Source: Wenzhouxiangella sp. AB-CW3 (lineage in GTDB: Bacteria; Pseudomonadota; Gammaproteobacteria; Xanthomonadales; Wenzhouxiangellaceae). From it: a DNA stretch of 64,000 nt. The stretch is from contig NZ_CP061368.1 of the NCBI RefSeq assembly GCF_014725735.1, forward strand, positions 3,301,225 to 3,365,224, in the 5' to 3' direction. Below are positions 43,199-63,877 of this stretch, one piece after another. The translations under genes and the position numbers were made by a program. The notes below the pieces were generated by a model. That model ran no database searches, had not been told where the DNA came from, and saw nothing but the letters and a program-made list of their open reading frames with translations. Each line of letters starts with the position of its first letter. Within the stretch, counting starts at the first letter, position 1.

Positions 43199-44270
43199 CT
43201 AAGGCGCTGCGCCGCCGGCCAACACTTCGCCGCCGGCCAACACTACCTGGAGCGCTTCACGCTGCGCGGCATGCTTGTCCGGATTCTGCTCCATCAAGCG
43301 TCGAAGACTTTGCAGCTTCCATTTGACCGCCGGCAGTTCAGCGGCTTGCTCCAGTTCAATGGAAGAAAAGTCGGGTGTGCCCTCATGCAACGACAGCAAG
43401 AACGCAGTGGCTTTGGCATCCAGGCACGTACGGACATCGTCGATCAGACGACTTCTCGTGGCATGCAGGTCATCTAGTGGGCCATGCGGCAAGTTAGGTA
43501 ACACTCAGCCGTCGCACAAGCGTCGTGGGCAAGGCGCGCGAGCGCAGGACTGGCCGTCGCCAATTCAAGCGAGTGCAACACGAGCAACGGCTCCGCTCGC
43601 AAGGCTTCATTCTCTGCGCGAAAGTCGCCATGCGGCTTCGCCTGCCCTGCCCTCGGCGCTTGTGCGGCGGCTGAGTGTTACCTTACTTGCCGCATGGCCC
43701 ACTAGCGCCACAGGCTCACGGGTCATGCCTGCGAACTCCTGCCGAAACACCTGGTCGTGGTCGTAGGCGCGGGGACCGAGCAGTTCGTGGGGCGGACGAT
43801 AGGAGCTCGCTACGTGCACCAGAAAAACCCGGAACATACCCTCGGTCAGTCCTTCATTGTCGTATAGCAACTTCACATCGAACAGGTCACGTGGGTGCTG
43901 ACGATCCAGGGCGGCGTGCAGTTTTCCGCCGAAAAGATCCTCGAACGACACCACCTGGATTTCAGCATACCCATATCGATCCTGAACAGCCTCGCTGACC
44001 TCCCGCCATTCGGGCTCGTGAACGACGCCGCGCATCACCGGCGAGGTCTCGATCTTGATTTCAGCGCTGCCAAGCCGAGCGAAAACCCATGTCTCGCCGC
44101 CACGCCCGCCGGCCATTCGCTGTGTTCTTGCTCCCTTCACAGTTCGCTCGATGCCTGCGGCAATTCGGTCCAGGGCCGCATCGATTTCAGCAAGACTGTC
44201 GGCACGGTTCATCACCGGGAGATAAGTCAGGTTGATATCAACGGACAAACGAGGCAGATCACGGTATAAG
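43199..44270 (-). pseudogene. AbiEii-type nucleotidyltransferase toxin, broken (5' deletion, frameshift, MITE insertion)
   Basis: Conceptual translation gives YRDLPRLSVDINLTYLPV (the nucleotidyltransferase core of AbiEii), RHPRDLFDVKLLYDNEGLT and EFAGMTREPVAL, interrupted by the 232-bp element at 43474-43705. It then resumes exactly in frame as DDLHATRSRLIDDVRTCLDA to the stop at 43199. The start is lost: the upstream KGGTGINL motif survives only as the fused tail of the AbiEi gene, and one extra base (or two missing) shifts it out of frame before YRDLP. The toxin is therefore inactive by at least three lesions. Family recognition rests on these motifs and the AbiEi neighbour. Confidence 0.85.
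43474..43705. mobile_element. MITE-like element with ~49-bp inverted repeats and CTAG target duplication
   Basis: The ends are inverted copies over about 49 bp with two mismatches; each begins ctagtgggccatgcggcaag. CTAG flanks both ends (43474-43477 and 43702-43705), and removing the element plus one CTAG restores the AbiEii frame precisely (VAL-DDLHA). The interior has no transposase and is GC-rich. It shares interior segments (tcaagcg, aacacg-gcaacggc) with the second element at 44955-45151. A 4-bp YTAR-like duplication is known for some IS families such as IS701; the parent transposase here is unknown. Confidence 0.85.
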
Positions 44271-44954
44271 ATTGATGCCGGTTCCGCCTTTGACCAGGGC
44301 GCGGTCCCCGCGCCCGAGGTCGAAATCCTCGGGATTGAGCCGTTTGCGCCAGGCATGCCCATGGCGATCGGCAAAGACGAAGAACAGGCGCCTGACCTGG
44401 ATCTTCCTGCAATCATTCAGTAGGGAACCCAGGAGTTTGGGGCGCAGAGTCGTCAGGCTTTCGAACGCCATATCCAGATTGTGGAAGCTCACATGATCCG
44501 GGAGTTCATCCAGGGCTTCCATCACGGCACGTTCCGGCCCGGACATCCTCATCGACCACTCCCATGGGGGGCTTCCTGCTCGGCCCGAATCCGGCTCGCC
44601 TTGGACTTCCAATTGCCCCATCTCTGGATCTCCAAACAGGCGCTGATTGCGGATCTCCAGCGGAGCGTCCAAGGACAGTTTTTTCAGCCAATTGGGAGCG
44701 TCTGCACCGTAGAGCCAGACGGGCGCCTTGTCGCCAAGCGCCAGGTAATGAGTGTAGCCTTGAAGTGTCAAGGCCGTCATGCCTCCCACATGGACGGTGT
44801 AGCCCATGATGTGCTGCAACGAGAGCACACAGGTCTTCCAGTCGATTCTGTCCGACGACCGGGCACTCGTTCCCGGGCGACGGAAAACGCCGCGAGCGAG
44901 ACGCTCCAGCCAGCCCTGCTTAACCCGGCCATCGCATACTATTAACCCGGCACG
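44259..44954 (-). pseudogene. AbiEi-type antitoxin, truncated by MITE at 5' end and fused to AbiEii at 3' end
   Basis: The frame retains AbiEi features: GWLERLARGVFRRPG, YTVHVGGMTALTLQGYTHYL, DAPLEIRNQRLFGD, LLNDCRKIQVRRLFFVFADR and HAWRKRLNPEDFDLGRGDRA. It ends LVKGGTGINLIP. The last part switches from the AbiEi terminal VKGG to the AbiEii motif KGGTxINL, indicating a deletion joining the two genes at the shared KGG. The N-terminal winged-helix segment expected before GWLERLARG is missing, displaced by the repeat at 44955-45151. Confidence 0.8.
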
Positions 44955-45151
44955 AATCAGCAGACACACAGCTTGCCTCTCAGCGTTCGTGGCAAGGCGT
45001 CGGCACGCAGGTGTAGCGGGGACTACGTCAAGCGCCGAGAACACGCGCAACGGCTTCACTCCAGGGCTTTTTCCCGTTCCGACAAGCCGCCCTTGCGTTC
45101 TCGCCTGCACTGTCCACGGACGCTGAGAGGCAAGCTGAATGCCTGCTGATT
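44955..45151. mobile_element. Second MITE-like element (~197 bp) interrupting the AbiEi gene
   Basis: The ends form an imperfect inverted repeat of about 38 bp (aatcagcag, then CA-rich spacer, cagcttgcctctcagcg, then gtgg). The right end continues outward as taatgaccgcatta, which also occurs at the solo copy near 39594; the left flank differs. There is no coding capacity. Interior stretches resemble the element at 43474-43705, so both are probably mobilised by the same or related transposase. No clear target duplication was found. Confidence 0.7.
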
Positions 45152-45923: not shown

Positions 45924-46439
45924 TCAGACGAGGTTCAGTTTCTTCACCGTCGAAATCGGCAGGTACAGGTGATGCCGATCATCCTTCAGCGGCTGGAATC
46001 CATATTTCAGGTAAAACGCGCGTGCAGCATCATTGATTGCGTCCACTTCGACAGCATGGATTCCAATTTCGTCGGCCGCACGCAGGGTTCTGGCCAGGGC
46101 ATCCATCAGCAGGTGCTCCCCCAGACCCTGGCCGGCAGCGGATCGGGCGACAGCCAGCCGACCAAGGTGCGCCACCGGTATGGGATAACGGGGCAGGCGC
46201 TTGCGCAAGTCCTTTGGCACATGATCAAAGGCCACGGCACCTGCCGAGAGCGCATAGTAGCCATAAACGTCATGCGAGCCCGGGGAACCAAGGGCCACGA
46301 AGTGCTGGCTGATTCCTGCAGCCTCGTTCTGGCGGGCAAAGCGGCGAAGGTACTCGTTAAGCTCCGGGACACCGCAGTCGAAGGACTTGCGATCATGCCC
46401 CTTCCTCAGCGCCTCGATCGTCCAGGCCGGATCAGCCAC
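45924..46439 (-). CDS. GNAT-family toxin of a TacAT-type toxin-antitoxin pair
   Basis: The 171-residue N-acetyltransferase has HLGRLAVARSAAGQGLGEHL (acetyl-CoA binding R/Q-x-x-G-x-G), FDCGVPELNEYLRRFARQNE at the start and ARAFYLKYGFQPLKD near the end. This is the layout of TacT-like toxins that acetylate charged tRNAs. It overlaps the 3' end of the DUF1778 antitoxin gene by 8 bp, the usual arrangement. No damage is visible, so the pair is likely functional. Confidence 0.9.
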   Translation of the reverse strand: MADPAWTIEALRKGHDRKSFDCGVPELNEYLRRFARQNEAAGISQHFVALGSPGSHDVYGYYALSAGAVAFDHVPKDLRKRLPRYPIPVAHLGRLAVARSAAGQGLGEHLLMDALARTLRAADEIGIHAVEVDAINDAARAFYLKYGFQPLKDDRHHLYLPISTVKKLNLV

Positions 46440-46737
46440 CTCGACGACGATAGCGTTCGGCAGCGGCTTGCAACGCCTCGTTGGGCTCGGAATCTTCCGA
46501 AATCAGCGCCAGGAACGCCTCGCGGTCACGGCGATTGAGCTGCGTGGTCGTCGCTCGCTCGACCGTCTCGCGAGCCACATCAAGCAAGCGCGACAGCACG
46601 AATTCCGAGACGGTCTGGCCACTGGCCACCGCCGCCTGCTCGATCAGGCGCTTGTGCTCACTCTGTAGCCGGAAATCCAGCCGGGCGTCCCGCGCGGGCG
46701 GGTTGGAATTCGTTGCGGTTGCCATGGACGTGCTCAT
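46432..46737 (-). CDS. DUF1778 (TacA-type) antitoxin
   Basis: About 101 residues from ATG 46737 (MSTSMATATNSN) contain a ribbon-helix-helix-like N-terminus (ARLDFRLQSEHKRLIEQAAV, then SEFVLSRLL). A C-terminal toxin-binding tail (LISEDSEPNEALQAAAERYR) follows. ATG 46725 is an alternative start. The ATG at 46737 lies within the left arm of the palindromic operator, consistent with autorepression. The gene precedes and overlaps the GNAT toxin gene. Confidence 0.9.
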   Translation of the reverse strand: MSTSMATATNSNPPARDARLDFRLQSEHKRLIEQAAVASGQTVSEFVLSRLLDVARETVERATTTQLNRRDREAFLALISEDSEPNEALQAAAERYRRRGG

Positions 46738-46758
46738 GTACGGATATTTGCCGTACAT
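46736..46758 (-). promoter_or_regulatory. Palindromic operator of the TacAT-like operon
   Basis: ATGTACGG (46736-46743) and CCGTACAT (46751-46758) are perfect 8-bp inverted arms with a 7-bp spacer. On the minus strand a -35 TTGCGG (46785-46780), 17-bp spacer and -10 TAGAAT (46762-46757) overlap it. The expected transcription start is near 46750, inside the operator, so antitoxin binding would block polymerase. Confidence 0.8.
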
Positions 46759-46849
46759 TCTACAGGGGAAGTCCTGCAGCCGCAAGGTGGCACTTGGGCG
46801 TTTGTGAAGGGGGTAATCCCCCGAACTCGATGCGCCTCAGAAGTACAGT

Positions 46850-47218
46850 TCACCCCCCCCCCTGAACCCCCATGCGTCGGGCCACCCATACGACTTCGTC
46901 GGGATCGGATTCGAGCGCTTCGAGCGGACTTCGACCACGCAGGCGATCATTGGGCGTGATCAGCCACATGAGTCGCAACCAGGGCGACGCAAGCTCCATC
47001 GCCTGAATCACCTTCCCCAGCCCGGGCAAGATACATCCATCGGGCATCAGAAGGGTCGGTATCAGCGTGCGGCCTTTGCTCTCGACCCCGATCAGACCCC
47101 CGTTCTCAAGGTGCTGCTCGACCTGCACTGTCGCGCAGCCCAGCATGTCGACCGCGGCGGGCAGGTCGACCATCTGTTTGCGGAACTCCTCCCGATATGG
47201 GGAATGGGATTTTGGCAT
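46850..47218 (-). CDS. Chimeric protein: IS3 OrfA start fused to a ParS/MbcA-like antitoxin domain
   Basis: ATG 47218 has AGGAGG 8 nt upstream, which is the IS3-family OrfA initiation region. The first about 18 residues (MPKSHSPYREEFRKQMVD) are OrfA-like, then the sequence switches to a HTH/antitoxin-like protein: AAVDMLGCATVQVEQHLENG, WLITPNDRLRGRSPLEALES, VVWVARRMGVQ. The C-terminal part resembles toxin-binding domains of Xre/MbcA/ParS antitoxins. No toxin partner is adjacent. A 10-G run lies just before the stop, so slippage would alter the last residues. Confidence 0.65.
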   Translation of the reverse strand: MPKSHSPYREEFRKQMVDLPAAVDMLGCATVQVEQHLENGGLIGVESKGRTLIPTLLMPDGCILPGLGKVIQAMELASPWLRLMWLITPNDRLRGRSPLEALESDPDEVVWVARRMGVQGGG

Positions 47219-47268
47219 TTGGAACACCTCCTATTCTTAAAGGATCAGGTGTCCACGAAAGTGGATCA
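47166..47268 (-). mobile_element. Truncated IS3-family left end
   Basis: On the minus strand the sequence from 47268 begins tgatccactttcgtggacac, the left inverted repeat type of IS3-family elements. The OrfA ribosome-binding site, ATG and about 18 codons follow. The rest of orfA and all of orfB are absent; the fusion point is near 47166. It is a fossil end whose promoter and start now drive the chimeric antitoxin-like frame. Confidence 0.65.
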
Positions 47269-47274
47269 AAACCA

Positions 47275-47367
47275 GATGGTCGCAGGTTCGAATTGGGGCA
47301 GTGGATATGAAAATGCCCCGTCGGGTAGACGAGGCAATTTTCTTGAAGTGGCGCGCCCGGCAGGATT
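47275..47367 (-). repeat. 93-bp direct repeat copy 1: tRNA-Arg 3' end plus terminator
   Basis: This is identical to 47457-47549, offset by 182 bp. It contains the final 19 bases of the tRNA-Arg gene including CCA, the downstream hairpin terminator and a plus-strand piece of the T-arm (gtcgcaggttcgaa). It is a detached tRNA end without the 5' part, adjoining the IS3 end. Hairpin-rich DNA (47368-47442) follows it. Confidence 0.9.
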
Positions 47368-47442
47368 GCTGCGCCCGCTGAAGCGGGCTTGTCCTTCGGA
47401 CTGTCGCTTCGCTCCAGCGATTGTGCGCTAACGCGCACAATG
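47368..47442. repeat. Hairpin cassette in the detached tRNA T-loop (copy A)
   Basis: The 75-bp insert lies between ggcaggatt and cgaacctg, the two halves of a tRNA T-arm. It consists of consecutive stem-loops: GCCCGCT/AGCGGGC, GTCC/GGAC with a TTC loop, TCGCT/AGCGA and TTGTGCGC/GCGCACAA. The first two modules are shared with the cassettes at 47667-47746 and 47865-47944; the others differ. Confidence 0.8.
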
Positions 47443-47456
47443 CGAACCTGATTGTT

Positions 47457-47549
47457 GATGGTCGCAGGTTCGAATTGGGGCAGTGGATATGAAAATGCCC
47501 CGTCGGGTAGACGAGGCAATTTTCTTGAAGTGGCGCGCCCGGCAGGATT
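47457..47549 (-). repeat. 93-bp direct repeat copy 2 (native tRNA-Arg 3' end and terminator)
   Basis: This is the intact counterpart of the repeat at 47275-47367. Here the 3' end is continuous with the complete tRNA-Arg gene. The duplication implies that tRNA end plus terminator were copied once to the left. Confidence 0.9.
47491..47517 (-). terminator. Rho-independent terminator of tRNA-Arg
   Basis: On the minus strand GCCTCGTC pairs with GACGGGGC (one G-T pair) around loop TACCC and is followed by ATTTTC. It begins 14 bp after the tRNA CCA end. A second identical copy is at 47309-47335. Confidence 0.75.
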
Positions 47550-47607
47550 CGAACCTGCGACCTTCGGCTTCGGAGGCCGACACTCTATCCAACTGAGCTA
47601 CGGGCGC
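47531..47607 (-). tRNA. tRNA-Arg (anticodon CCG)
   Basis: The 77-base gene includes an encoded CCA. The acceptor GCGCCCG pairs with CGGGCGC, the D-arm is GCTC-AGTTGGATA-GAGT, and the anticodon stem-loop is TCGGC-CTCCGAA-GCCGA with anticodon CCG at 47573-47571. The T-arm is GCAGG-TTCGAAT-CCTGC. All arms pair, so it is functional. A -10-like TACAAT lies at 47624-47619. It is the only intact one of three copies in the locus. Confidence 0.95.
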
Positions 47608-47655
47608 TCTGTGCATGTATTGTAGGCGAATCCTGCGCGAACCCTTCGGGTTCGG

Positions 47656-47805
47656 CCCGGCAGGATGGCTGCGCCCGCTAAAGCGGGCTTGTCCTTCGGA
47701 CTGAATTGCTGCGCAATTCAGCGAGCTCGCGGCTATGCCGCTCGGTTCGAACCTGCGACCTTCGGCTTCGGAGGCCGACACTCTATCCAACTGAGCTACG
47801 GGCGC
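47656..47805 (-). pseudogene. tRNA-Arg(CCG) copy split in the T-loop by a hairpin cassette (unit 1)
   Basis: On the minus strand the tRNA runs intact from the acceptor through the anticodon arm to GCAGGTTCGA. The 80-bp cassette (47746-47667) follows, then ATCCTGCCGGG, after which the acceptor end is replaced by a CGAACCC/GGGTTCG hairpin. It cannot fold to a standard tRNA unless the cassette is removed, and it lacks the proper 3' end and CCA. Confidence 0.85.
47667..47746. repeat. Hairpin cassette in the split tRNA copy (unit 1)
   Basis: Four consecutive stem-loops occupy 80 bp: GCCCGCT/AGCGGGC, GTCC/GGAC (TTC loop), GAATTGC/GCAATTC and GCGGC/GCCGC, plus the palindrome GCGAGCTCGC. It interrupts the T-loop exactly between ggcaggat and tcgaacctg. 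The first two modules are shared with the cassette at 47368-47442. Confidence 0.85.
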
Positions 47806-47853
47806 TCTGTGCATGTATTGTAGGCGAATCCTGCGCGAACCCTTCGGGTTCGG

Positions 47854-48003
47854 CCCGGCAGGATGGCTGCGCCCGCTAAAGCGGGCTTGTCCTTCGGACT
47901 GAATTGCTGCGCAATTCAGCGAGCTCGCGGCTATGCCGCTCGGTTCGAACCTGCGACCTTCGGCTTCGGAGGCCGACACTCTATCCAACTGAGCTACGGG
48001 CGC
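47854..48003 (-). pseudogene. tRNA-Arg(CCG) copy split in the T-loop by a hairpin cassette (unit 2)
   Basis: This copy repeats unit 1 base for base, with its cassette at 47865-47944. Its upstream side (48004-48040) differs from unit 1 and looks like the ancestral tRNA promoter region, with TACAAT read on the minus strand just upstream. Transcription from there could run through all three copies. Confidence 0.85.
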
Positions 48004-63312: not shown

Positions 63313-63563
63313 CCGGATCAACCTGCCCCACCAACAGCGTCTGGCATCTCCTCAACGTCGCCCCGGCCACCGCGCCGGGACCTCACAGGCTCGATCCTGC
63401 ATCGCCCACCCCCAGTCACCGTCCTACCGGCCGAAGAGCCGGGACCCCGCACGCTCACTGCTGCACGGCCTCCACCAATTGCCGCGCTCCAACCGGCCTG
63501 ATTGGGTTAACATGGCGGCTTGCTACTTGGGACCACCGAGTCAGCGACTCAAGAAAAAAGCCA

Positions 63564-63745
63564 CGGCATCAGGTGTTTCGGGAAACCGGTGAAAGTCCGG
63601 CACTGCCCCCGCAACTGTAATCGGCACGCCCAGGGTGATTCGGCCCGGACATGCGGCTGGTACAACCACTCCGTCGGATGATGGGGGAAGGTCCAGCCGG
63701 GATGACACGACTGTTCATCCCCGAAAGTCAGGAGACCGGCCTGAG
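63564..63745 (+). promoter_or_regulatory. Cobalamin riboswitch upstream of btuB
   Basis: Conserved elements appear in order: GGTG-TTTCGGGAAACCGGTG, GAAAGTCCGG, CCCCCGCAACTGTAATCGG, and the B12-box AGTCAGGAGACCGGCC at 63726-63741. Spacing agrees with class I cobalamin riboswitches. It should repress the downstream btuB when adenosylcobalamin is abundant. Confidence 0.93.
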
Positions 63746-63877
63746 CCAGATCATGAACCATTCGGGTTGCGGTGGGCGACCGGGGTCGACGTTGCCTGTG
63801 CATATCCTGACGGCTTCTCGTGCTCCTTCCACCCTCTCCGACCAGTGCGCGGGTGAGCGCGAGGAGCCAACAACACC

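Follow-up and report, generated by a model that had tools for sequence, protein, structure and literature searches.

Three partial copies of a tRNA-Arg gene in the soda-lake bacterium Wenzhouxiangella sp. AB-CW3 (genome label G000) are each interrupted in the T-loop by an array of hairpins, and sequence comparison suggests that these cassettes are a divergent, RtT-like variant of the tyrT-type tRNA repeats. The locus lies on a 64-kb stretch of DNA that was analyzed as a whole (the window). The explanation that we favor, to which we give an even chance of being correct, is that the cassettes derive from an RtT-like non-autonomous mobile element that was tolerated in half-copies of tRNA genes and then tandemly amplified. 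Mobility has an observed basis in a fixed insertion point and orientation, a preference for the T-loop TTCGAAT, a parallel in REP palindromes, and covarying stems with GNA triloops.

Split copies of tRNA-Arg(CCG) and their hairpin cassettes

A sequence-only reading of the window had described three hairpin cassettes in tRNA-Arg T-loops, and all three were recovered, as arrays of four hairpins spanning 76 to 80 bp (Table 1). The same reading placed the cassettes within tRNA-Arg itself. The split at the T-loop was borne out, but the gene is encoded on the minus strand and the split copies are partial. Three points had been missed: the intact tRNA-Arg gene is kept, the split copies duplicate only part of it, and REP palindromes elsewhere hold related cassettes.

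Table 1. Features of the tRNA-Arg(CCG) locus in window coordinates
Feature	Position	Strand	Remark
Intact tRNA-Arg (anticodon CCG)	47531..47607	-	Sole gene with a CCG anticodon in the genome
Left hairpin cassette, 76 bp, L-type, in T-loop of duplicated tRNA 3' part	47367..47442	-	
First right hairpin cassette, 80 bp, R-type, in T-loop of duplicated tRNA 5' part	47667..47746	-	
Second right hairpin cassette, 80 bp	47865..47944	-	Identical to first right cassette
Duplicated tRNA 3' part, T-loop to CCA end	47349..47366	-	After left cassette in tRNA sense
93-bp duplicate (inverted T-arm, terminator, tRNA 3' end)	47275..47367	.	100% identical to 47457-47549
Inverted copy of the gene's own T-arm 5' half (GATGGTCGCAGGTTCGAATT)	47457..47476	+	Second copy 47275-47294
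Terminator-like hairpin between tRNA and left cassette	47496..47518	-	Duplicate at 47314-47336
198-bp tandem unit 1: tRNA 5' part, promoter region, cassette	47548..47745	.	
198-bp tandem unit 2	47746..47943	.	Identical to unit 1
tRNA-Arg 5' part (acceptor 5' strand to T-loop)	47747..47805	-	Split by first right cassette
tRNA-Arg 5' part	47945..48003	-	Split by second right cassette
Short T-arm 3' half, 12 nt, after first right cassette	47655..47666	-	Second copy 47853-47864

All three partial copies are interrupted between tRNA positions 58 and 59 (TTCGA/ATCC, the slash marking the insertion point). Read on the plus strand, every cassette lies between GGAT and the complement of the T-loop, which is TCGAA at two copies and CGAA at the first. 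The left copy (L-type) keeps the tRNA 3' part and the terminator region, and the right copies (R-type) keep the tRNA 5' part, its upstream region, and 11 to 12 nt of the 3' part. The motif GGCTTGTCCTTCGGACTG occurs three times against 0.08 expected occurrences, and the cassettes are therefore not a product of chance. Identical tandem units are a known assembly problem; an assembly or sequencing artifact is nevertheless hardly conceivable here, since many independent genomes share this layout, which refutes it. Furthermore, the 3,844,697-nt AB-CW3 genome was closed with nanopore and Illumina reads (PMC7691419), and this combination of long and short reads argues against assembly error.

Hairpin arrays of this type span 60 to 90 nt and share a general layout, in which H1, H2, and a CCGAAGG-type H3 are followed by RAG, H4, and then AGTA, AGTCA, or AGCA. 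In tRNA sense, the Wenzhouxiangella cassette follows TTCGA and precedes N59-TCC, and consists of an (A)CCGAGC hairpin, a CTG-hairpin-CAG module, YCCGNAGGR, CAAG, a hairpin, and GCGCAG(T)C[A/C]. The cassettes fold better than shuffled sequences (z of -2.4 to -4.1), and the Wenzhouxiangella set contains 58 hairpins, compared with a shuffle mean of 21.9 and a shuffle maximum of 33. GNA triloops, which are known from stable DNA hairpins, close 31 of these 58 hairpins (0.7 in shuffles). In the H2 and H3 stems, on which the covariation count rests, 30 double-sided changes were found versus 11.3 in shuffles.

Several other features of the window were noted. Directly adjoining the array on the minus strand, a small protein (46850-47227) has weak similarity to wHTH and Xre/MbcA/ParS antitoxin domains. 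A GNAT acetyltransferase and a TacA-like antitoxin (45924-46785, minus strand) probably form a TacAT-type toxin-antitoxin pair, and an AbiEii/AbiEi type IV toxin-antitoxin pair was identified with Pfam at 43607-45110 (minus strand). At gathering score, the only Rfam matches in the window were tRNA and a cobalamin riboswitch (RF00174, 79.8 bits; 63554-63758, plus strand).

Array loci in AB-CW3 and in other genomes

Examination of all 42 AB-CW3 tRNA genes revealed arrays at 8 of them. Besides tRNA-Arg(CCG), these are tRNA-Arg(ACG), Ser(GCT), Ser(CGA), Ser(GGA), Ser(TGA), Thr(CGT), and Gln(CTG), the last of which is rearranged. Arrays were found at 8 of the 17 tRNAs with the T-loop TTCGAAT and at none of the 25 other tRNAs, a distribution with a chance probability of about 2e-4 (hypergeometric), although the four Ser loci are related. 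An intact tRNA gene is retained at all eight array loci; 39 of the 40 anticodons in this genome are served by a single gene, and Met CAT is served by three.

At the eight AB-CW3 loci the insertion point (A58/N59) is fixed and the orientation is always that of the tRNA strand. The proposal that the T-loop is the site of a hairpin element is thus upheld by the same position at eight tRNA loci and across the family. Cassettes also occur in the D-arm of tRNA-Ser copies, at TCGA/A or TTGA/A, and in tandem, after their own end. L-type units hold 8 to 10 nt before the insertion point and the entire 3' part, and R-type units hold the 5' part and 10 to 12 nt past the insertion point, so that a split copy comprises about 20 nt of core sequence surrounding the insertion point, extended on one side. 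No target duplication beyond 1 to 2 nt was found.

Some loci show further rearrangement. At tRNA-Gln(CTG) of AB-CW3 (L013, 1140-1260), an inverted copy of the tRNA 3' end, reaching as far as the T-loop, comes after the terminator, and a double cassette comes next; this long palindrome looks like a snap-back copy, in which a strand would have been copied back to the T-loop break. Both R-type copies of tRNA-Ser(GCT) (L010, 1500-1800) share an altered anticodon arm, which contains two additional nucleotides absent from the intact gene. Three tandem L-type units lie at tRNA-Arg(CCG) of W. marina (L192), and in the third of these the last part of the hairpin array differs and a second array is present, as if modules had been exchanged. 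A nearest-neighbor comparison also suggests exchange between tRNA loci inside genomes: 17 nearest neighbors were found at another tRNA locus of the same genome (shuffle mean, 3.9; shuffle maximum, 12), a count that is inflated by neighboring tRNAs sharing one array.

A covariance model built from Wenzhouxiangella cassettes, including their TTCGAA and ATCC flanks (R1), detected cassettes in 34 of 43 Wenzhouxiangellaceae genomes. Among 369 genomes of the class, two scored with R1 besides AB-CW3; here tRNA-Glu and tRNA-Arg show the same layout, and a congener of one of these two genomes carries cassettes at tRNA-Ser and tRNA-Arg. A strict core pattern matched 19 of the 369 genomes (reversed control, 0), and many of its matches lie about 100 to 380 nt behind tRNA genes for Ser, Arg, Gln, or Glu. 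The layout is also found in other families, including f59, f143, and Enterobacteriaceae, and overall the arrays occur at Arg, Ser, Thr, Gln, Glu, and Tyr tRNA genes. Matches of the core pattern in Fluviicola lie within a protein gene and look like chance, and a loose H1 pattern was discarded since it matched as often as in the control. A search of phage and plasmid collections with the window cassette gave no match. Two of four viral-contig matches (L214 and L215) lie in coding DNA and look like chance.

Tyrosine integrases that use T-loop attB sites leave attR-like tRNA 3' ends, and the cassettes could be scars of such integrative elements, with the hairpins as remains of attP. The left units do duplicate the sequence from the T-loop to the tRNA 3' end, as these integrations do, and one array locus (L217) adjoins what appears by eye to be an integrase gene. 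However, the units measure 165 to 200 bp and carry no genes, the right-hand units contain the tRNA 5' half, and arrays also occur in REPs. The window neighbors are AbiE, GNAT/TacA-like, NMT1, and kinase genes, with no integrase or island. The cassettes thus resemble integrase attachment sites in T-loop use and tRNA 3'-end duplication, but differ in lacking an integrase or island at the window locus and in having 5'-half duplicates as well. We consider an origin as integration scars very unlikely.

Relation to the tyrT repeats

Repeats behind E. coli tyrT, reportedly described by Egan and Landy in 1978, have been known for decades, and no accepted account of their origin is known. A search with a Pseudomonas-like unit led to the purU-tyrTV locus of Enterobacteriaceae and to E. 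coli RtT sRNA annotations, with a match in 4,106 of 5,426 E. coli genomes. The 178-bp tyrT repeats of E. coli (RtT, RF00391) and the window-type arrays have in common tandem units of about 170 to 200 bp behind an intact tRNA gene, a tRNA 3' end closing each unit, an inverted T-arm-like motif (GATGAGAACC) ahead of GGTTCGA, and hairpins with CCCGAAGGGC, RAG, a hairpin, and AATCC. In the window, the left unit follows an intact tRNA copy and closes with the tRNA sequence from T-loop to CCA (17 nt of 3' end inside a 91-nt match), but right units hold only 11 to 12 nt. The hairpin array, the CCGAAGG core, RAG, and a last hairpin followed by AATCC are likewise found. In contrast, the hairpin sequences of the window type differ and fall below the Rfam threshold, its arrays occur at Arg, Ser, Thr, Gln, and Glu tRNA genes whereas RtT is found at Tyr, its right-hand units hold the tRNA 5' half, and its cassettes sometimes lie in the D-arm.

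The RF00391 model, which has a gathering threshold of 45 bits, did not match the window region up to E=10. The best Wenzhouxiangella match seen, to a cassette in L069, reached 24.8 bits and is below that threshold; matches at L216 and L217 were above it, and those at L235 and L211 were below. Because the window copies are below the Rfam threshold, we refer to them as RtT-like and not as members of the Rfam family as defined. R1 matched annotated E. coli RtT copies at E values of 1e-4 to 0.2 and Klebsiella copies from 1e-5, cross-family scores that are inflated because the flanks in this model are derived from tRNA. A second covariance model, R2 (the RtT cassette model), was made only from cassette interiors of other families; it matched the W. 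marina locus L193 at an E value of 0.002 (best in the control set, 0.11) and weakly matched L009 and other Wenzhouxiangellaceae copies at the right places. The cassettes of the window itself went undetected with R2 at E<=10. The covariance models suggest a weak tie between Wenzhouxiangella cassettes and RtT in both directions. The opinion that no named element has this structure was wrong in part, as the tyrT repeats share its layout and core and are matched by R1.

The RtT annotation also bears on a different reading, according to which array and tRNA are cotranscribed, a small RNA is released by processing, and the hairpins are kept for their RNA function. In RefSeq, the E. coli copies carry an RtT sRNA annotation that describes the RNA as a processing product of the tyrT transcript, and an RtT sRNA was reported to be upregulated at 10°C in Thioalkalivibrio strains (PMC8092127). 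Stem covariation and the presence of the tRNA upstream region in the right-hand units are consistent with such a function. However, the left cassette lies past the terminator-like hairpin in tRNA sense, REP-borne copies are located away from tRNA genes, GNA triloops are known from stable DNA hairpins, and both the host tRNA and the tandem copy number vary freely. A role as functional RNA therefore appears unlikely, if still worth serious consideration.

Cassettes in REP palindromes and the proposed mode of spread

The core motif was also found away from tRNA genes in four genomes (G372, G311, G324, and G301). Among 96 REPs of the form CGTCATTCCNGCG..GCNGGA listed in G372, 89 continue with ATCC and are uninterrupted, and 7 continue with CAAA and are filled. 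The filled REPs read GGA/CAAAAGCG...GGCCCGAAGGGCGAG...CGAGTA/ATCCA, and R2 matched the REP cassettes at E values of 3e-6 to 3e-4. The interruption point GA/ATCC is the same as in the T-loop, and this point shared by tRNA genes and REPs is the strongest sign of mobility. The filled REPs could also have arisen by copying of REP and cassette together as a unit, and not by invasion. CGTC-tagged REPs (CGTC-1/dRS3 type) have been reported to lack a dedicated transposase (Di Nocera 2013, PMC3733652). Like the cassettes, CGTC-type REPs are short dispersed palindromes, some of which hold an RtT-type cassette at GA/ATCC; the REP is, however, the host of the cassette and not the cassette itself, and the window copies sit in tRNA copies.

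The link to REPs is one of several features that recall HUH transposition, in which a single-stranded element would be moved by a Y1 (IS200/IS605 or RAYT) or Y2 (IS91) transposase. Hairpin ends, the lack of a clear target duplication, and a one-sided fixed target fit this mode of movement, and Y1 genes are present in the AB-CW3 genome. However, Y1 is absent from near-complete cassette carriers (e.g., G003 and G013) and from the carrier G019, IS91 (Y2) is absent from carriers G003, G011, and G013, and no cassette motifs flank any Y1 gene tested. As their presence is inconsistent among carriers, Y1 and IS91 transposases were rejected as the mover, and we regard HUH transposition as quite unlikely. 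The cassettes accordingly share hairpin ends and the lack of target duplication with IS200/IS605 and RAYT-REP systems, but no transposase is tied to them. Integron attC sites form a single long imperfect hairpin that bears R and L boxes; folding of the cassettes gives several separate hairpins.

Under the favored explanation, a mobile RtT-like cassette, a recombinase acting in trans would recognize the folded, single-stranded DNA of the array and insert it; no recombinase was recognized among the neighbors of the window copies. Since 39 of the 40 anticodons depend on one gene, insertions would persist only at tRNA genes of which one half had been duplicated. The units may then multiply by unequal recombination, giving rise to tandem copies. 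A broader proposal, to which we give slightly less than an even chance, is that RtT-type repeats are the tRNA form of a widespread non-autonomous mobile cassette that, as folded single-stranded DNA, is inserted by a recombinase at GA/ATCC in T-loops and in CGTC-type REPs. Our literature searches found no account of this architecture, and the spread to many tRNA genes, the 5'-half copies, and the occurrence in REP palindromes appear to be new within the literature searched.

The existence of both filled and uninterrupted REP sites makes the question of mobility directly testable. If RtT-like arrays are present at many tRNA genes of many families, and if the same cassette occupies REP palindromes that have uninterrupted sites alongside, RtT would be a case of a mobile element and not a peculiarity of tyrT. 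Overall, a small element would then exploit the most conserved part of tRNA genes while sparing the essential gene by way of half-copies.
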